A DNA stretch of 64,000 nt from assembly GCA_025358925.1 (NCBI GenBank), contig JANYHT010000013.1:1-64000 (forward strand). Direction: 5' to 3'. Position numbers and translations under genes: made by a program. Source of the stretch: Gemmatimonadaceae bacterium (GTDB lineage: Bacteria; Gemmatimonadota; Gemmatimonadetes; Gemmatimonadales; Gemmatimonadaceae). Below, one piece after another: positions 3,745 to 54,966 of this stretch. Below the pieces are notes generated by a model that did not search any database, was not told the DNA's origin, and saw only the letters and a program-made list of their open reading frames with translations. Numbering within the stretch: position 1 is the stretch's first letter; the number at the start of each line of letters is the position of its first letter.

Positions 3745-4728
3745 TTAATACCCCGCCGCCAAATCGACCACGTTCTGCAACGACTCGCCCCGCTGGTGTC
3801 GTCGAAGATTGTCACTAAATAGTGCGGCCACGTCGTCCCAGTGCGATTGGCGAAAGCCCGAACAATGCGGAGTGATGACGACGTTGGGCGTCGTCCAAAG
3901 CGCATCCATCGCGTCAAGCGGTTCGCGGTCGAACACGTCCAGCATCGCCCCGCCAAGCTGACCACTGCCGAGTGCAGCGCGCATGGCCGCATCGTCGACA
4001 ATCCCAGCGCGCGCGACATTCACCAACAACGCGCCGCGATTCAGCAACGAAAACTGCTCGGCGCCTATCATTCGATGTGTCGACGACACGCCGGGTGCCG
4101 ACAGGACGAGGACATCGCAATCCTGCAACACATCGTCTAGCTGAGCCGGCCCCACCACGCGATCGACGAACGGCACCATCGGCTGATCGAGCGTACGACG
4201 CACGCCGGTCACGTGCATGCCGAATGCATGCGCACGTCTCGCAATCTCCGTACCGATCGTGCCGAGTCCAACAATCGTCATGCGCTGACCGTGGAGCAGC
4301 CGCGGCCAATCTTTGGTCAATGCGTTCTGAATCCATTGCCGTTCGCGCTGCGCGGTCAACGTGTGGTGCAATTTTCGCGACAGCACGAGTAACCCACCCA
4401 TCACATGTTCGGCAATCGGGATCGCCTGCACCCCCTTGGAGTTCGTCACCAGCACACCATGTGTCGCAAGCACGGAAAGCGGAAGCAATCCTTCCACCGC
4501 TGCAGCCGGTGAATGCACCCATCGAAGCTTCGCTGCGGAGACAATCATCTCCGCCGTCAGGACGGGGGTGAAGCACGCATCAACGTCGACGACGGCCCTC
4601 GCCGCGCTCTCCATGTTGAACGCACGCACAAACTCAATCTCCGGGAACGCCACAATGAGCGCGGCCACGTGAGCATCAGGGATGGACCACGCCTTCACCG
4701 GCCACTGGATGTGAATCAGTACTTTCAT
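3745..4728 (-). CDS. D-isomer-specific 2-hydroxyacid dehydrogenase
   Basis: A 327-aa cytosolic NAD(P)-dependent enzyme that interconverts a 2-hydroxyacid and a 2-oxoacid. The Rossmann motif GLGTIG lies at 154-159. The family's catalytic trio is visible in order: Arg in NVARAGIVDD, Glu in FDREPLD and His in ITPHCSGFR. The substrate (glyoxylate/hydroxypyruvate type or other) cannot be read from sequence. ATG 4728 is preferred over GTG 4731: there is no Shine-Dalgarno, but TAGCTT lies 6 nt before it, as in a leaderless promoter. Monocistronic between spaced minus-strand genes. Confidence 0.88.
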   Translation of the reverse strand: MKVLIHIQWPVKAWSIPDAHVAALIVAFPEIEFVRAFNMESAARAVVDVDACFTPVLTAEMIVSAAKLRWVHSPAAAVEGLLPLSVLATHGVLVTNSKGVQAIPIAEHVMGGLLVLSRKLHHTLTAQRERQWIQNALTKDWPRLLHGQRMTIVGLGTIGTEIARRAHAFGMHVTGVRRTLDQPMVPFVDRVVGPAQLDDVLQDCDVLVLSAPGVSSTHRMIGAEQFSLLNRGALLVNVARAGIVDDAAMRAALGSGQLGGAMLDVFDREPLDAMDALWTTPNVVITPHCSGFRQSHWDDVAALFSDNLRRHQRGESLQNVVDLAAGY

Positions 4729-46744: not shown

Positions 46745-47440
46745 ATGCATCGTTTTATCGCACTACTCACGCTGTCCGTATTTGCGCTTGCGTGCGGCGA
46801 TCGTCGCGCCGGTACCAACCCGCGTACATCGGCTGCCATCGTGTCTGACAGTGATGTGCGTCGCCTGCCTCCAGAACGCAAGGCCACCGTGCCGGATGTC
46901 ATGCTATCGGCCGCAGATCGCGGACGAATGCTCGGCGCCGACAGCGCGCGCGTGCAGATGTACATCATCAGCGATCTCCAATGCGCCGCGTGCAAACGTT
47001 GGCATACGGATGTGTGGCCCAGCATTCGCGCAACGTACGTCGATCAAGGCCTCGTGCGCGTCACGTTTGTCCACTATCCGCTGCGAGACCACGCCAACGC
47101 CGTTCTGGCGGCCAATGCGGCACAATGCGCGTCTGCACAAGGTCAGTTTTGGTCGGCGATCAATAAACTGTTTGAGACGCAACTGTTGTGGGCGTCCGTA
47201 TCAGCACCCACTGTGTTGCTCGATTCCCTTGCCGCAGTGCCCGGCGTTGATATCACAACGCTACGTAATTGCACGGCGAGCCATCGCGTGTTCCGACAAA
47301 TTCGTGCTGATATCAATTGGGCCGATAACGCGAAACTGGGGGTGCCACCAATGATTTTAGTTGGCACACGCCATGTCTCGGTAACGGCGCCGTTAGCCGC
47401 CATTCGTGCTGTGATCGATTCAGCATTGGCTGGCAAGTAG
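46745..47440 (+). CDS. DsbA-like thioredoxin-fold lipoprotein
   Basis: 231 aa from ATG 46745. A lipoprotein signal ends at Cys17 (VFALACGD). The active-site CxxC is Cys80-Ala-Ala-Cys83 in ISDLQCAACKRWHTD. The downstream cis-proline element appears as GVPPMILVG, and an insertion of helices with VLAANAAQCASAQGQFW matches bacterial DsbA/DsbG-like proteins (thioredoxin_4 type). It probably makes or isomerises disulfides or reduces a partner at the cell surface. It is divergent from the haloperoxidase gene, with 11 bp between the two start codons. Confidence 0.88.
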   Translation: MHRFIALLTLSVFALACGDRRAGTNPRTSAAIVSDSDVRRLPPERKATVPDVMLSAADRGRMLGADSARVQMYIISDLQCAACKRWHTDVWPSIRATYVDQGLVRVTFVHYPLRDHANAVLAANAAQCASAQGQFWSAINKLFETQLLWASVSAPTVLLDSLAAVPGVDITTLRNCTASHRVFRQIRADINWADNAKLGVPPMILVGTRHVSVTAPLAAIRAVIDSALAGK

Positions 47441-48050
47441 AAAGATTTCCAGCAATTTCGTTGGAATTTTCGACACCGAATTGAATGTAGGTCGGAAATG
47501 TGCTCGACGAGGACGAGTCGACCATGCGCGGCGCCATCGCGAGACGCGCGAAGTGTTGTCACTAGCGTTGAACAAAGCGGAAATCACGACGCAAGGGATG
47601 GCTCGCGACGACGCAGTGCGCAGGACATGTTGCGAATAGCGTAAAACACGCCGTGGCAATTTGAACAAAGTGCGTCACCGACGCATCAGCAGTCGTTCCA
47701 TTGCGCGTCATTTCGCCACTAAAAGGCGCGTGAGAAAGTGCTTTTCGACGATCAAATTCATTCAATAATGTGAAAATAAAGAATTACGGGGCTGCAGCGT
47801 AACGCTTCTCGGTGCAAATGTGAAAGGAAATGCAAGTCATTTGCCAGAATAAGTGGCCTTTCGAGCGAAGCGGATGACATCGCAGTGACGGGTTGCTCAC
47901 ACCATGCGCGCTCATCGCTGGTCGTCTTTCACTTTCATCGGACATCGACAATGCGCAACAGTCGTAGCACTGGCAGGAATTATGCGGGGGGGGTCGTGTG
48001 TAACGCGTAGTGGAATACTGGGCCAATGGCGAAATGCAGGAGCGCGTACC
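47441..48050. other. 610-bp intergenic region, no gene seen
   Basis: Between the DsbA-like gene and the lipoprotein gene. The ORFs here lack ribosome-binding sites and codon bias. It is more AT-rich than its surroundings around 47750-47850. A G8 run lies at 47986-47993, 57 bp before the next start codon. It probably carries the promoter of the lipoprotein gene; no clear -35/-10 pair was found. Confidence 0.5.
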
Positions 48051-48776
48051 GTGCGCTTTTTTGGTCGTCTACTTGCAATCTTGGTACTTGTCGGGGCTCC
48101 AGTAATCATTGCCGCTTGCGCGGATTCACCAACCGCCCCGAAAGTAGCCACCAGTTCACCGAGTGCGCGGAAAGGCTTTTATGTTTGCCCGTGGGGATTC
48201 GACGGTAGCGGACAGTGCACCAGCCCTGAGTACTGCATGGACGCAACAGCTTCGTCGGGTGCGTTCTGCGGTAGCCAATTACCCTGCGACATCGGCTGTG
48301 GCGGCGGAGGCGGAGGTGGAGGATACGTGCCAACGATACACTACGATCCGATCACAACGGTTGGCGAAGACTTTCCCGGATACGACGCTGACTTTTACGC
48401 ACCCGAACGAATCAACGAATTTGGCTACATTTTGAAGAACGTGTACAAGCATAGCCCGGTATTCACCATCAATTACACCTGCCAGTTTGGCGATACTCAC
48501 TTCTTCTATATCTCAGATGGCTACTACAATCGCAACAACTGGGGCGTCACTAATCTTGGCGCTACGGGGTGGCGCGGCAACTATGCTCTTAACGTTCAAC
48601 CTTTTGTCACCCATATTCGAGGGGCAACACCGGGCGAGACGCTCAACTGGGTCAGTCGCATCCCAATCACGCTCCGCCTTAAACCAATCGTCGGAAACGC
48701 CAACGAAGTTGTCAGCTTCGGATTTGAGCAAAGCGGTAAGGTTCAAGGCAGTTTCATCGGAATTCACTATCGCTGA
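48051..48776 (+). CDS. Cys/Gly-rich lipoprotein of unknown function
   Basis: 241 aa from GTG 48051, chosen because AGGAG lies 8 nt upstream and the signal (LLAILVLVGAPVIIAAC) then starts at the N-terminus; the open frame runs back to 47904 but that part is not signal-like. Cys23 is the lipidation site. A Cys-rich segment (VCPWGFDGSGQCTSP, YCMD, FCGSQLPCDIGC) and an 8-glycine linker follow, then an aromatic beta-rich domain (TCQFGDTHFFYISDGYYNRNNWG) that ends GSFIGIHYR. No family was recognised. Its last 12 codons lie within the 456-bp direct repeat, and ORF X begins in an overlapping frame. Confidence 0.72.
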   Translation: MRFFGRLLAILVLVGAPVIIAACADSPTAPKVATSSPSARKGFYVCPWGFDGSGQCTSPEYCMDATASSGAFCGSQLPCDIGCGGGGGGGGYVPTIHYDPITTVGEDFPGYDADFYAPERINEFGYILKNVYKHSPVFTINYTCQFGDTHFFYISDGYYNRNNWGVTNLGATGWRGNYALNVQPFVTHIRGATPGETLNWVSRIPITLRLKPIVGNANEVVSFGFEQSGKVQGSFIGIHYR

Positions 48777-49173
48777 CACCTATTACTTCACAGTCGACGA
48801 TCTCGCTCGCGCTTTCACACCCATTGTGGGCGCTTCGAGAGCGAAAGCATTAGCGCTCGCGTGGTCGGAACTGTACGCCGACTGTATTGTGGATGGTCGG
48901 GTCGTGGCGTTCCCCGAAACGTTTGAGGTGCCACGACTCGACAAGCGCACGCAAGCCTGCAACGCGAGCGTCGAAATTAAACATGCGCACGAGTTGAGTA
49001 CGCTACACGGAAGTCGGCTTGTGAACTTCTCTCCGGGTACACTTACTTTCTTGGCCGCTGCAAACCCCGACGTGCGGAAGCGCTTTGATCGCCTCAAGAT
49101 TCAATACGGGCATCGTACGATCGATGACCCCGTCAAATGGAAACAGTTGATCGAGTTTCTAAAAAACCCGTAG
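48724..49173 (+). CDS. ORF X copy 1, unrecognised protein
   Basis: Up to 149 aa from TTG 48724; GTG 48826 would give the 115-aa core shared with copy 2. The start is uncertain because there is no Shine-Dalgarno. It is soluble, with no signal or membrane segment. Sequence landmarks: YYFTVDDLARAFTPIVGASR, ALAWSELYADCIVDGR, FPETFEVPRLDKR and the C-terminus RKRFDRLKIQYGHRTIDDP, KQLIEFLKNP. It overlaps the lipoprotein 3' end in another frame. Against copy 2 no indel breaks this frame, and about 16 codons differ silently while about 15 are replacements, which supports real coding. The IS3 element cuts its 3' hairpin. Confidence 0.55.
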   Translation: MSKAVRFKAVSSEFTIADTYYFTVDDLARAFTPIVGASRAKALALAWSELYADCIVDGRVVAFPETFEVPRLDKRTQACNASVEIKHAHELSTLHGSRLVNFSPGTLTFLAAANPDVRKRFDRLKIQYGHRTIDDPVKWKQLIEFLKNP

Positions 49174-49195
49174 CATAAATCCCACCGGCGCACAC
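48740..49195 (+). repeat. 456-bp direct repeat, copy 1
   Basis: Matches 50496-50951 without gaps at roughly 90 percent by hand. The first 87 or so bases are identical and the last 120 nearly so, and most differences lie in the middle. The IS3 element begins at the next base. The unit contains the lipoprotein 3' end, ORF X and the left half of a terminator. Confidence 0.85.
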
Positions 49196-49256
49196 TGGGC
49201 GTGACCAGATTTCGTGGACACCGCACGACCCCTAACATTGGGGGTGGAGGTATCCG

Positions 49257-49584
49257 ATGAAACGAATGGAGCAGAAGAAATCCATCGCACCGCAGACGCG
49301 TCGCCACTTGAGCGACGAGTTCAAAGCGGAAGCCGTGCGGATGATGCAGGAGCGTCGGGCCGGCGTGTCGCTCGCGCACATCGCCGCGCGAGCTCGCGGT
49401 GACCGCGGAGCAGTTGCGTGTGTGGGCCCGCGCCTAGCGCGACGCGCGCGGCGATGGCGGACGAGTGCCTGGGGAGACGCTGGAGCAAGGGAATCGGCGC
49501 TTGCGACGCGAGAATGACAGCTTGCGGCAGGAGCAGGCGTTCGCAAAAAAAGTGGCGGTGTACTTCGCGAAAGAATCGCGATGA
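49257..49584 (+). pseudogene. IS3 transposase OrfA, frameshifted with a stop codon
   Basis: It starts at ATG 49257 with GGAGG at good spacing. RRHLSDEFKAEAVRMMQER and SLAHIA form the helix-turn-helix. Near 49388 the frame shifts: the true continuation ELAVTAEQLRVWARA is in another frame and meets a TAG, after which RRLRRENDSLRQEQAFAKKVAVYFAKESR (quoted in parts) runs to the TGA at 49582. So at least two lesions are present. Without OrfA or the OrfAB fusion the element should be immobile by itself. Confidence 0.8.
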
Positions 49585-50456
49585 GGTACGCCGTGATCAC
49601 GCGCCATCGCGACGAATGTCCGGTGCGACTGATGTGCCGGGTGCTCGAGGTCACCCCGTCGGGGTTTTATGCGTCGCGGAAACGGCCGACCAGTTGGCAC
49701 GCCGTGATGGACGACGTGTTGCTGGCCCAGGTGCGCATTGCGTTTGCGACGAGCGGCGACACGTACGGCGCGCCGCGCATCCAGAAAGACCTCATGGCGG
49801 AAAGCCTGGCGACGAGAACGAAACGCGTCGCGCGCTTGATGCGCGACGACGGCGTGGTCGCGCGACCGCGGAAGGCGTTTCGCGTGCAGACGACGGATGC
49901 GCATCATGCGGACCCCATCGCGCCGAATCTGCTTGCGCAGCAGTTCGACGTGCACGGCGTGCACCTGAATCACGTGTGGGTGTCGGACATCACGTATTTG
50001 CCGACGCGCGAAGGCCTGTTGTATCTCGCGACCGTGCTGGATCTCGCCTCGCGCCGCTGTGTCGGGTGGGCGATGCGCGACTCGTTGGAAAGCGAAATCA
50101 CGGTGCGCGCGGTGGAGATGGCCATTCTCGCACGCCGTCCGGCGGCAGGTCTGAGTGTGCATTCCGATCGCGGCAGTCAATACGCGGCCCATGCCTTCCG
50201 TGACGTGTTGCTGCAGCACGGCATGGTCCAGAGCATGAGTGGCACGGGCAATTGTTACGACAACGCCGTCGCCGAGAGCTTCTTCTCCACGCTCGAATTC
50301 GAACTCGTGATGCGACAGGACTGGCACACGCGCGAAGACGCGAAACGCGCCGTCTTTCAGTACATTGAAACGCGGTACAATCGCAAACGACGCCATTCCA
50401 CGCTCGGCTATGTCAGTCCGATGGAGTACGAATTGCAGATGCAACACGCCGCGTAG
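49581..50456 (+). CDS. IS3-family transposase OrfB (DDE integrase core)
   Basis: 291 aa, intact. An HTH_21-type region GDTYGAPRIQKDL precedes the rve core. The DDE triad is Asp136 (WVSDITYL), Asp196 (HSDRGSQY) and Glu232 (NAVAESFF), with 35 residues between the last two. The C-terminus YNRKRRHSTLGYVSP is the classic IS3 end. It would make a transposase only when fused to OrfA by frameshifting, and OrfA is broken here. Confidence 0.93.
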   Translation: MRYAVITRHRDECPVRLMCRVLEVTPSGFYASRKRPTSWHAVMDDVLLAQVRIAFATSGDTYGAPRIQKDLMAESLATRTKRVARLMRDDGVVARPRKAFRVQTTDAHHADPIAPNLLAQQFDVHGVHLNHVWVSDITYLPTREGLLYLATVLDLASRRCVGWAMRDSLESEITVRAVEMAILARRPAAGLSVHSDRGSQYAAHAFRDVLLQHGMVQSMSGTGNCYDNAVAESFFSTLEFELVMRQDWHTREDAKRAVFQYIETRYNRKRRHSTLGYVSPMEYELQMQHAA

Positions 50457-50495
50457 CACCCATAACCCAGTGTCCATCAAATCGGGGCAAGCTCA

Positions 50496-50951
50496 GGTTC
50501 AAGGCAGTTTCATCGGAATTCACTATCGCTGACACCTATTACTTCACAGTCGACGATCTCGCTCGCGGCTTCACACCCATTGTGGGCGAATCGAGAGCGA
50601 AAGCATTAGCGCTCGCGTGGTCGGAACTGTACGCTGACTGTATTGTGGACGGTCGGGTCGTGGCGTTCCCCGAAACGTTTGATGTGCCACGACTCGATAA
50701 GCGCACGGAAGCGTGCGACGCGAGCGGTGAGATCAAACATGCCGAAGAATTGAGGACGCTGCATGGACCTCGGCTTGTGAGGTTCGCTCCTGGCACGCTT
50801 TGCCTCATTGCCGCAGCAAATCCCGACGTGCGGAAGCGCTTTGATCGCCTCAAGATTCAATACGGGCATCGTACGATCGATGACCCTATCAAATGGAAAC
50901 AGTTGATCGAGTTTCTAAAAAACCCGTAGCACAAATCCCACCGGCGCACAC
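50496..50951 (+). repeat. 456-bp direct repeat, copy 2
   Basis: Partner of 48740-49195. It begins at the first base after the IS3 right end and continues past the homologous end into the complete terminator hairpin. The lipoprotein gene that should precede this copy is missing. Confidence 0.85.
50582..50929 (+). CDS. ORF X copy 2, 5'-truncated by the IS element
   Basis: 115 aa from GTG 50582; the frame is open back into the IS end but without ATG or a ribosome-binding site. It aligns along its entire length with copy 1 without indels. Replacements cluster at LDKRTEACDASGEIKHAEELR and FAPGTLCLIAAA, while the C-terminal 40 residues are almost identical. It may be expressed from the IS, or it may be silent. 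It retains its own terminator. Confidence 0.5.
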   Translation: MGESRAKALALAWSELYADCIVDGRVVAFPETFDVPRLDKRTEACDASGEIKHAEELRTLHGPRLVRFAPGTLCLIAAANPDVRKRFDRLKIQYGHRTIDDPIKWKQLIEFLKNP

Positions 50952-50965
50952 TGCCGGTGGGATTT
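50933..50965 (+). terminator. Intrinsic terminator after ORF X copy 2
   Basis: AAATCCCACCGGC and GCCGGTGGGATTT are perfect 13-bp arms with a 7-nt loop (GCACACT), and the stem ends in T-rich sequence. At copy 1 only the left arm remains, where the IS begins. Confidence 0.85.
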
Positions 50966-51010
50966 TGCGTAACCATTGCAAATTCCGTCGCGTTTCGGCG
51001 CGGACTTGCT

Positions 51011-52309
51011 TCACGAGAAGTCTTCTACATCGCGCGAAGTTGCAACCTGTGCAGGCAAGTAGTACTGCGCGAACACCGCACCAACGAACATCGACGCCGC
51101 GAGCACGTACAACCCAATCGTTGCACTACCCGTGGCATCGGCAATGGCTCCAACAATGTACGGACTTAAAAAACCACTGAGATTGCCGAGTGAGTTGATG
51201 ATAGCAATACCGGCGGCAGCGGATGCTCCGCTTAGAAACGCAGTGGGCAGCGTCCAGAATAACGGAAACGTGCTGAGCACACCGGTGGTGCCGAGTGTGA
51301 GCGCCAGCATGCCTAACAACGTGTGCTGCCCGGCCAGGCCAGCGAGCGCCAACCCAACGCCACCGCAAAGCGCGCTCGCGGCGAGATATCGCCGACGCTC
51401 GCCCGTGTGATCGGATCGCCGGGCGACAAGTACCATCGTGATTGCGGCAACGCCGTAGGGGATTGCGCTCAACAATCCAACGTCGAGCAAACTCTTGACG
51501 CCCATATTCTTAATGATTTGCGGTAACCAAAAGCCAACGCCATATAATCCCATCGTGAACGTGAAGTACAGCGCGGCAAACGATAGAACACGGCGATTAC
51601 GAAATGTGTTGGCGATGGAGAGAGTCTGCTTCTTTTCCTCATCGCGTTCGAGATTGCGATGCAATACCAATTTCTCGGAATCGTTGAGCCACCGTGCACG
51701 GTCGATCGAATCGTCGAGATAGAAGAACACGGCGACGCCCATGACGACCGATGGGATGCCCTCGATAAGGAATAACCATTGCCAACCAGCCAAACCGTTC
51801 ACCCCGGCCATCGCACGTAAGATCCAGCCCGACAGGGGACCGCCAATGACACCAGAAATGGCCACGGCCGTCATGAATAACGCGATGATGCGCGCGCGCA
51901 TCATGCTCGGAAACCATTGGGTGAGATACAGAACGATGCCGGGAAAGAAACCAGCTTCCGCAAGCCCGAGTGCGAAGCGAATTCCGTAGAACGCTGACGC
52001 GCTCGTCACGAACATCGTGAGCGCGGACAGCACGCCCCAGCTGATCATGATACGCGCAATCCAGACGCGCGCGCCCACGCGGTACAAAAGCAGATTGCTC
52101 GGCACCTCAAACAAAAAGTAGCCGATAAAAAAGATACCGGCACCAAATCCGTAGGCAGTGTCGCTCAACTTCAGGTCCGCCAGCATTTGCAGTTTTGCAA
52201 ACCCGACGTTGACGCGATCAAGATATGCGGCGACGTAACAACAGAAGAGAAATGGGAGCAATCGCCACGTGATGCGGCGATAAAGTGCCGTTTCGCTATT
52301 TAAGTGCAC
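51011..52309 (-). CDS. MFS transporter, anion:cation symporter (ACS) family
   Basis: 432 aa from GTG 52309, which overlaps the upstream gene's end by 14 bp. About 12 membrane helices. ACS-type signatures are FLFCCYVAAYLDRVNVGFAKLQM in helix 1, FGAGIFFIGYFLFEVPSNLLLYRVGARVWIARIM, and GLAEAGFFPGIVLYLTQWFPS. Such transporters import hexuronates, phthalate, tartrate or related organic anions. It is the second gene of a minus-strand pair; no catabolic enzyme is nearby to specify a substrate. Confidence 0.92.
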   Translation of the reverse strand: MHLNSETALYRRITWRLLPFLFCCYVAAYLDRVNVGFAKLQMLADLKLSDTAYGFGAGIFFIGYFLFEVPSNLLLYRVGARVWIARIMISWGVLSALTMFVTSASAFYGIRFALGLAEAGFFPGIVLYLTQWFPSMMRARIIALFMTAVAISGVIGGPLSGWILRAMAGVNGLAGWQWLFLIEGIPSVVMGVAVFFYLDDSIDRARWLNDSEKLVLHRNLERDEEKKQTLSIANTFRNRRVLSFAALYFTFTMGLYGVGFWLPQIIKNMGVKSLLDVGLLSAIPYGVAAITMVLVARRSDHTGERRRYLAASALCGGVGLALAGLAGQHTLLGMLALTLGTTGVLSTFPLFWTLPTAFLSGASAAAGIAIINSLGNLSGFLSPYIVGAIADATGSATIGLYVLAASMFVGAVFAQYYLPAQVATSRDVEDFS

Positions 52310-52966: not shown

Positions 52967-53989
52967 ATGCTCCTTCGTTATTCAGTCGTCGTGCTCTGCG
53001 CGGGTCTGCTGGCATCGTCGCTTCGCGCGCAGTCCATCTCTGCCGCAACAACGACGGCAGTACCGCTCATCGGCTTGATCACGAAAACGGCCACCAATCC
53101 GTTTTTTGTCAAGATGAAAGAGGGCGCGCAACTGGCCGTGGTAGCGAACGGCGCCAAGCTCTTGTCCGGCGCCGGAAAATCAGACGGTGACAACGCGGGG
53201 CAAGTTACGGCCATGGAAAATATGATCGCGGCGGGTGCGAAGGTCATCCTCATCACCGTGAGTGATGCGAAAGCGATCGTGCCCACGATCAAGAAGGCCC
53301 GCGCCAAAGGCGTGTTGGTAATCGCACTCGACAGCCCAACCGATCCACAAGACGCGACCGACGCGCTCTTCGCGACCGACAACTACAAAGCGGGTGAGTT
53401 GATCGGGCAATATGCGAAGCATGCGTTGGGTACAAAGTTGCCGCAGATCGCAACGCTTGATCTCTTGCCGGGACATCCGGTGGGTGCACGGCGACACAAC
53501 GGATTTCTCAAGGGCTTTGGGCTTCTCGCGCCCGACGCCAACAGCAACACGTTGGGCCAACCACCAGCCGTGGTGTGCATGGCCGATAGTTATGGTGATC
53601 AGGGCAAGGGCCAGACCGGCATGGAAAACTGCTTACAAAAAAATCCGGGTATCAACGTGGTGTTCACGATAAACGAGCCAACCGCGGCCGGAGCGTACAA
53701 GGCGCTCAAAGCCGCAGGCAAGGAAAAAGCGGTCGTCATTGTTTCCGTTGATGGTGGATGTCAGGGCATACGCGACGTTGGCACGGGGGCGATTGCGGCT
53801 ACAGCACAACAGTATCCGATGTTGATGGCGAAACTTGGCGTTGAGGCGGGCGTCGCGTTTGTGCGCACAGGAAAACGTCCGAGCGGCGACACAGATACCG
53901 GGGTGCGACTGATTGCGCGCACCGCGTTACCGGGCGTGAAGAGTGACGATGTAAAGACAGGGTTGGATCTCTGTTTCGGAACGAAATAG
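52967..53989 (+). CDS. Sugar ABC transporter, periplasmic substrate-binding protein
   Basis: 340 aa with a signal peptide at 1-22. The fold is the ribose/galactose-binding type 1 periplasmic protein: PLIGLITKTATNPFFVKMKEGAQLAV, DGDNAGQVTAMENMIAAGAKVILI, LFATDNYKAGELIGQYA and a hinge segment VVIVSVDGGCQGIRDV. The closest subtype by sequence is FrcB, the fructose-binding protein, with homologous order FrcB-FrcC-FrcA downstream. It captures a sugar for the permease. Starts at ATG 52967, 15 bp before the permease by its stop. Confidence 0.92.
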   Translation: MLLRYSVVVLCAGLLASSLRAQSISAATTTAVPLIGLITKTATNPFFVKMKEGAQLAVVANGAKLLSGAGKSDGDNAGQVTAMENMIAAGAKVILITVSDAKAIVPTIKKARAKGVLVIALDSPTDPQDATDALFATDNYKAGELIGQYAKHALGTKLPQIATLDLLPGHPVGARRHNGFLKGFGLLAPDANSNTLGQPPAVVCMADSYGDQGKGQTGMENCLQKNPGINVVFTINEPTAAGAYKALKAAGKEKAVVIVSVDGGCQGIRDVGTGAIAATAQQYPMLMAKLGVEAGVAFVRTGKRPSGDTDTGVRLIARTALPGVKSDDVKTGLDLCFGTK

Positions 53990-54003
53990 TCGAGGGCGAC
54001 GCG

Positions 54004-54966
54004 ATGTCGTGGCGGGCGCGCGTACCGTCGGTCGCCACACTTGGTCCTGTTGTCGCGCTGCTCGTCGCAGGCGTGTTTTTCGCGTTACAGAGCGACCGCT
54101 TTCTGACGACCGACAACGTGGCGTTGGTGCTGCAGCAAGTAATGGTCGTAGGCGTGATAGCGATCGGGCAGACACTTATTGTGCTCACGGCCGGCGTCGA
54201 TCTCTCGTGTGGCGCAGTCATGGCGCTCGGCGGCATCGTGATGACAAAACTTGCTACACTGAGCGGCATGCCCGTGCCGCTTGCGGTACTCAGTGGCATT
54301 GGTGTCAGCACCCTTTTTGGCACGCTCAACGGGGCGCTCGTTGCGGTGGTGCGCCTTCCGCCATTCATCGTCACGTTGGGTACGCTCAACATCGCGTTTG
54401 CTTTGACGCAACTGTATTCGGGCGCGCAGACAGTCACCGACATTCCGCCTGCGCTCGAAGCGTTGGGTCGCACGTTCAGTGTCGTGAGCACGCCCATCGA
54501 GTACGGCGTTTTGCTCATGTTCGCGATGTACGGTGTCGCATGGTTTGCCCTAGGCCAGACGGCGTGGGGGCGACATGTGTACGCCATCGGCGACAATCTC
54601 GAAGCCACCCGTCTAGCCGGAATTCCCACCACGCGCATTTTGCTGAGCGTGTATGCAGTGGCTGGCGTGTGCTACGGTTTCGCTGCGCTGTTGGCGGTTG
54701 CGCGCACTGGTGTCGGCGATCCGAATGCGGGACAGACAGAGAATCTCGACGCGGTGACCGCCGTTGTGATTGGCGGGACGTCGTTGTTTGGTGGTCGCGG
54801 CGTTGTACTCAGTTCGCTCATTGGTGCGTTAATCGTTGGTGTGTTCCGCAATGGACTGACGTTAATGGGCGTGTCGTCCGTATATCAGATACTCGTCACG
54901 GGCGTGCTGGTGATTCTCGCCGTCACAGCGGATCGACTATCAAGACGCCACGCGGGCGCGCGATGA
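54004..54966 (+). CDS. Sugar ABC transporter permease (RbsC/FrcC family)
   Basis: 320 aa, about eight to ten membrane helices. GVIAIGQTLIVLTAGVDLSCGAVMALGG is the classic RbsC-family motif, then RLPPFIVTLGTLNI and a late NLDAVTAVVIGGTSLFGGRG with the EAA-like loop. GAGGGCGA lies ahead of ATG 54004. The next gene overlaps by ATGA. It forms the channel of the importer with the half-size ATPase. Confidence 0.93.
   Translation: MSWRARVPSVATLGPVVALLVAGVFFALQSDRFLTTDNVALVLQQVMVVGVIAIGQTLIVLTAGVDLSCGAVMALGGIVMTKLATLSGMPVPLAVLSGIGVSTLFGTLNGALVAVVRLPPFIVTLGTLNIAFALTQLYSGAQTVTDIPPALEALGRTFSVVSTPIEYGVLLMFAMYGVAWFALGQTAWGRHVYAIGDNLEATRLAGIPTTRILLSVYAVAGVCYGFAALLAVARTGVGDPNAGQTENLDAVTAVVIGGTSLFGGRGVVLSSLIGALIVGVFRNGLTLMGVSSVYQILVTGVLVILAVTADRLSRRHAGAR

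Follow-up and report, generated by a model that had tools for sequence, protein, structure and literature searches.

Within a stretch of 64,000 nucleotides from the genome of a soil-type Gemmatimonadaceae bacterium (4.0 Mb, 72 contigs), here called the window, an IS3-family element lies exactly between two direct copies of a 456-bp unit that carries a small gene, ORF X. With slightly better than even confidence, we read the locus as a gene for a lipid-anchored toxin followed by its immunity gene ORF X, the latter having been duplicated around the IS through a rearrangement. The gene pair would probably represent an undescribed lipid-anchored toxin–immunity family that is absent from the libraries searched. 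The features of the locus, in window coordinates, are as follows.

48051–48776, forward: lipoprotein gene, probable lipid-anchored toxin (GTG start, 241 aa; lipobox VIIAAC, Cys-rich segment, poly-Gly linker, C-terminal domain)
48724–49173, forward: ORF X copy 1, probable immunity gene (third-position bias, codon usage, dN/dS 0.15 against the relative's contig L004, where it is single-copy)
48740–49195, forward: duplicated unit copy 1 (ORF X, preceded by the final 37 bases of the lipoprotein gene and followed by the terminator's first arm and loop)
49196–50495, forward: IS3-family element, 1300 bp (flanks CAC left and GGT right, no matching target duplication)
49196–49221, forward: left inverted repeat of the IS, from comparison with IS relatives
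49257–49580, forward: transposase OrfA, degenerate (frame change and in-frame TAG relative to L069)
49581–50456, forward: transposase OrfB (rve and HTH_21 domains; frame intact)
50470–50495, reverse: right inverted repeat of the IS, from comparison with IS relatives
50496–50951, forward: duplicated unit copy 2, running on into the intact terminator
50525–50929, forward: ORF X copy 2 (ATC at 50525 and GTG at 50582 kept, upstream TTG lost)
50696–50824, forward: divergent block in copy 2, probable recombination tract (dS 0.76, against 0.066 elsewhere)
50929–50968, forward: intact terminator hairpin after copy 2, shared with a convergent transporter gene (−28.5 kcal/mol, z −6.9)

Two copies of ORF X adjoin the ends of an IS3-family element

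The direct repeats 48740–49195 and 50496–50951 align in register over 456 bp with 41 differences and no indel (start-to-start spacing 1756), and this 91% identity is far beyond chance. As the original prediction had stated, the 1300-bp element fills the gap between them precisely, which is no coincidence because each copy is cut where an end of the IS cuts. In the whole genome, ORF X is present only in these two copies, and the IS only once. The ends of the IS were fixed by comparison with its relatives from genomes of the family, and consist of imperfect 26-bp terminal repeats (TGGGCGTGACCAGATTTCGTGGACAC and TGAGCTTGCCCCGATTTGATGGACAC). Its assignment to the IS3 family follows from an OrfB with a DDE rve domain and HTH_21, from the TG...CA ends, and from the 3-bp target duplications of its relatives (CTC in L073, ATC in L071, CAG in L082). 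The triplets that flank the element in the window, CAC and GGT, are unmatched, and as the relatives have 3-bp duplications, the two flanks must come from different target sites. The earlier argument that a simple IS insertion does not account for the locus thus holds and, judged by these flanks, the IS-bounded structure is the product of a rearrangement.

The left end of the IS is situated at the 3' end of the 5-base loop in the ORF X terminator hairpin, and this hairpin is consequently destroyed behind copy 1, present with −28.5 kcal/mol behind copy 2, and intact in L004. A search of positions 47400–51100 against Rfam gave no match, and a scan for sigma-70 promoters, which is uninformative for this phylum, found none.

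Across 30 genomes of the genus, 179 of the family, and 395 of the phylum, ORF X was found elsewhere in one congener only (G018). Its contig L004 carries the lipoprotein tail, a single ORF X, the intact terminator, and the transporter gene in collinear order and without the IS, and most simply this arrangement would be the ancestral one. A second contig of the same genome contains the upstream genes and stops just short of the lipoprotein. The assembly of this relative breaks in the lipoprotein region (at L004:1 and at a contig end corresponding to about window position 47990), with about 500 bp missing, and its full lipoprotein gene is therefore not seen. The dS relative to this genome amounts to 0.40–0.42 for the flanking genes on both sides, 0.05 for the lipoprotein tail, and 0.155 for ORF X, and since the flanking genes differ more than tail and ORF X, an exchange of the module between lineages is probable. 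Further downstream, window positions 53296–54169 are 100% identical to the end of L004 (to position 3869) over about 870 bp, with neighbouring DNA mostly at 85–92%, which may reflect either very recent recombination or strain mixing in the assembly. Collections of viral, phage, and plasmid sequences yielded no relatives.

ORF X is a coding gene whose copies differ mainly in one block

ORF X had been proposed to be a real gene of no known family, and this is borne out by the codon pattern, by the three available sequences, and by the library searches: in each of these (copy 1, copy 2, and L004) the sense frame has the better codon usage, and ORF X and the lipoprotein gave nothing usable against Pfam, NCBIfam, PHROGs, PADLOC, and PDB sequences. 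The AlphaFold2 models were too poor to use (pLDDT 38 and 36). Relative to L004, copy 1 has 23 differences, 15 of them at third positions (dN/dS 0.15), and copy 2 has 41, of which 27 are at third positions (dN/dS 0.19). Between the two copies, 40 of the 41 differences fall in the ORF X frame and one just past the stop, and the Nei–Gojobori method counts 19.5 silent and 20.5 replacement changes. The resulting dN/dS of 0.30, a value whose calculation had been proposed along with the prediction, comes with an unbroken frame, and the L004 copy is coding as well; there are 15 substitutions among the 144 residues of the two proteins, in agreement with the roughly 15 replacements counted before. An antisense ORF of 104 aa that is present in both copies was rejected, as it has the worse codon usage and stops inside the ORF X span and lies on the wrong side of the terminator; its dN/dS is similar because its wobble positions coincide with those of ORF X.

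The differences between the copies are unevenly distributed, with 31 of the 40 coding differences inside one 129-bp block (about codons 68–110). The frame is kept in this block, and its dN/dS is 0.24. Sites specific to copy 2 are clustered as well, as evidenced by 24 of 28 lying within 124 bp (permutation P 0.0013). This suggests that the divergence of the copies is mosaic, with the block as a recombination tract. Outside the block, the dS between copy 1 and copy 2 is 0.066, compared with 0.14–0.15 for either copy to L004, and this smaller distance is as expected if the duplication came after divergence from the allele of the relative. The original prediction further held that both copies had been under selection after duplication, and this part could not be upheld: about 4.5 silent and 4.5 replacement changes are left outside the block (Fisher p 0.04 or 0.22 depending on rounding), and because these are about nine changes, selection on both copies cannot be claimed. 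The divergence of the copies does not prove a continued use of copy 2.

The C-terminal domain of the lipoprotein has a distant match at the end of an RHS-repeat protein

The lipobox VIIAAC of the upstream gene, with an alanine at position +2, is by sequence a predicted outer-membrane lipoprotein signal. In a search of the 179 family genomes with this lipoprotein, a single match covered the C-terminal domain (E 3e-4), and the search-wide significance of this match alone is about 0.05. The matched region, about residues 110–234, corresponds to the C-terminus of an RHS-repeat protein of 2021 aa from another genus (G135, L104/L127), with a BLASTP value of 8e-8 and a score of 102 against a shuffle mean of 31.6; the next best score among 1,943 unselected frames was 48, half of the 102 reached by the RHS match. 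The alignment ends only a few residues short of the C-terminus in both proteins and includes the common motifs HFF, RIP, and GFxQxGxxxGSF, and the RHS core domain of the larger protein was recognized by TIGR03696 (1.3e-18). The domain is common to proteins with different delivery parts, as seen in one distant pair. The counterpart locus comprises two genes.

L127:87–6152: RHS-repeat protein gene, C-terminal domain shared with the window lipoprotein
L127:6159–6599: probable immunity gene, 146 aa, 6 bp downstream of the RHS gene

The 146-aa gene has the size of ORF X and the same position relative to the domain-bearing gene, and its protein resembles the N-terminal half of ORF X (FTVDDLARAFTPI.../FTESELATAFTLL...). 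Compared alone, as a check independent of the domain match, the two proteins reach a score of 56, which was attained by 4 of 20,000 shuffles, and the 146-aa gene is the top match to ORF X among 1,630 unselected frames, the next scoring 48. The hhalign comparison gave P 0.0019 with a probability of 14%, and BLASTP gave no match between the two proteins. A homology of ORF X to this neighbour is thus suggestive and not proven. A pair of genes that resembles a pair of neighbours in the same order is the pattern of a toxin domain with its immunity protein, and the earlier proposal that ORF X is a partner of the lipoprotein has become plausible with an RHS domain that is followed, 6 bp on, by an ORF X-like gene.

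Other matches were discarded. Those of ORF X to nucleotidyltransferase genes in L097 and L100 had E values of 0.018 and 0.044 in the 395-genome search, which is chance level, and the matches in L099 and L101 are low-complexity reading frames. The L097 and L100 genes (L097:1273–1752, L100:925–1743) are DUF6036/AbiEii-type nucleotidyltransferase-like genes that adjoin small DNA-binding-like genes, and they have in common with ORF X a stretch like FTxIxGxxRxxxLxLAWSxxYxD.

The N-terminus of the lipoprotein, with its lipobox, SPTAP, and Cys loop, resembles free-standing short lipoproteins of other genera (L102, L103, L107, L108). Such Gemmatimonad lipoproteins of about 70–90 aa (these four and L112) follow the pattern ACxxSPTAP...CRSGY...G..YC. 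The lipoprotein therefore looks like a lineage-specific anchor that is joined by a poly-Gly linker to a putative toxin domain.

Three starts are candidates in copy 1 of ORF X, namely TTG 48724 (149 aa), ATC 48769 (134 aa), and GTG 48826 (115 aa). The TTG lies upstream of the repeat and is absent from copy 2, and the ATC overlaps the lipoprotein stop codon as ATCGCTGA and is conserved in copy 2 at 50525. ATC is a rare and poor start codon. Alignment to the L127 partner would place the start at ATC 48769: the ATG of the partner and this ATC are at equal distance from the common FT motif, and ORF X contains no ATG, GTG, or TTG start that fits the homology.

Discussion

Duplications centred on a single IS, in which amplicon, IS, and amplicon follow each other and the outer IS copies are absent, have been described as "unflanked" (Yelin and Kishony 2026, PMC13423834) and as Dup-IS-Dup architecture (Ngan et al. 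2024, PMC11708052). They were observed directly without a larger tandem precursor, and successive sister-chromatid transpositions or an insertion in a break have been proposed as their origin (PMC13423834, PMC11708052). Our locus has the same composition: two direct copies enclose one IS, the target duplication is unmatched, the outer edges carry no IS, and the ends of the IS connect sites that in the ancestral sequence are separate, with outer junctions that are intact and ancestral as in L004. There are differences, as the published cases span tens of kb and involve IS1 or IS481, whereas the unit here has 456 bp and the element belongs to the IS3 family, and as the published duplications are fresh and unstable, whereas the present one is natural and old, with copies that are 9% diverged and a degenerate IS. 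To judge by its architecture, the duplication is a natural example of this recently described kind (2024–2026).

For the gene pair, the closest comparisons are the SitA/SitI systems of myxobacteria, in which lipobox-anchored polymorphic toxins have downstream immunity genes (PMC5562445), and the RHS polymorphic toxins. Lineage-specific lipobox leaders have been described, and so have series of immunity genes that follow polymorphic toxins (PMC3482391). The window locus has in common with SitA/SitI the type II signal with a lipobox, the separate C-terminal domain, and the small gene directly downstream. SitA/SitI systems are characterized by delivery through TraA/B outer-membrane exchange and by a SitB neighbour; the window locus differs from them in that it occurs in another phylum, lacks a recognized nuclease domain, and has a thioredoxin-like lipoprotein as upstream neighbour. 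The likeness to RHS toxins (PMC3482391) consists in the homologous C-terminal domain (G135, L104/L127) and the small downstream gene, extra immunity genes being typical there. Unlike in these toxins, a short lipoprotein leader replaces the RHS shell, and the domain and immunity families are missing from Pfam and NCBIfam.

The toxin and immunity functions, the order of events, and the expression of copy 2 are what we infer from these genes. The module would have consisted of two genes, for a secreted, lipid-anchored polymorphic-type toxin and for the cytoplasmic immunity protein ORF X, and the IS3-family element would have inserted in the terminator loop of this module. By another rearrangement, for which sister chromosomes or two alleles differing in the position of the IS are the simplest partners, the right end of the IS would then have been fused to the toxin gene some 12 codons short of its end. 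The resulting order would be toxin–immunity–IS–immunity, and neither outer edge would be damaged. Transcription that starts at the toxin promoter could traverse copy 1, with its broken terminator, and the IS into copy 2, which would supply the intact terminator. Later decay of the IS, with OrfA broken, would have fixed the arrangement, and copy 2 may have acquired a tract from a divergent allele.

The original prediction explained the same structure by two tandem lipoprotein–ORF X pairs, with an IS inserted after the first and an IS-adjacent deletion of the second lipoprotein. This history is possible as such, since it predicts the same final sequence including the missing target duplication, and IS-adjacent deletions are common, with 14 IS150 cases lacking target duplications (PMC11708052). 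However, it takes three events and is not needed, a remnant of a second lipoprotein was not found in this genome, and the sole relative with the locus is single-copy and without the IS; we regard it as unlikely. With one relative, the sister-chromatid, allele-recombination, and tandem-pair histories cannot be separated. It is quite improbable, in our view, that the locus was created by the assembly, through joining via the IS, in a metagenome-derived contig, of two strains with the element in the terminator and in the lipoprotein tail, respectively. The 9% difference between the copies, the 72 contigs, and the stretch of complete identity at 53296–54169, which makes strain mixing conceivable, would agree with such an artefact. 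Against it, the IS has a single copy in the assembly, so that within the genome there is no repeat to confuse an assembler, and, leaving the block aside, both copies are more distant from the relative than from one another.

Regarding function, the lipoprotein may instead serve as an accessory at the cell surface, with ORF X as a cytoplasmic partner in another role, and we take this as a real possibility that we lean against. Named toxin and immunity families gave no match, and the end of an RHS protein could also carry a non-toxic domain, but a domain at the variable end of an RHS protein, with a small gene directly behind it, is the hallmark of polymorphic toxins, that very gene is where ORF X finds its best match, and SitA is a precedent for a lipobox-anchored toxin with an immunity gene downstream (PMC5562445). 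The chance that copy 2 is a dead fossil, i.e., a passive long target duplication without a role, comes not far short of even. Copy 2 has lost the upstream TTG and the coupling to the lipoprotein, and its own changes outside the block are about 2 silent and 2 replacement ones; yet it contains neither stop nor frameshift, it keeps all signals from the ATC through the terminator, and the divergent tract has an intact frame with its low dN/dS.

Our preferred reading of a toxin–immunity module with a duplicated immunity gene has a wider implication, which we put forward tentatively and with more doubt than conviction: a natural, long-lived IS-centred duplication may have given rise to a second, independently diversifying immunity gene, within a new toxin–immunity family that is built on a Gemmatimonadota-specific lipoprotein leader. 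Duplications around a single IS have been recorded in laboratory evolution experiments and reportedly collapse with ease. A natural example whose copies have diverged would demonstrate that such structures can last and supply material for gene diversification. The comparison of the lipoprotein with the RHS protein points to a candidate toxin–immunity family outside the libraries searched. If our reading is true, single-IS duplication would be linked directly to the birth of spare immunity genes, and such a spare copy could protect against toxin variants.
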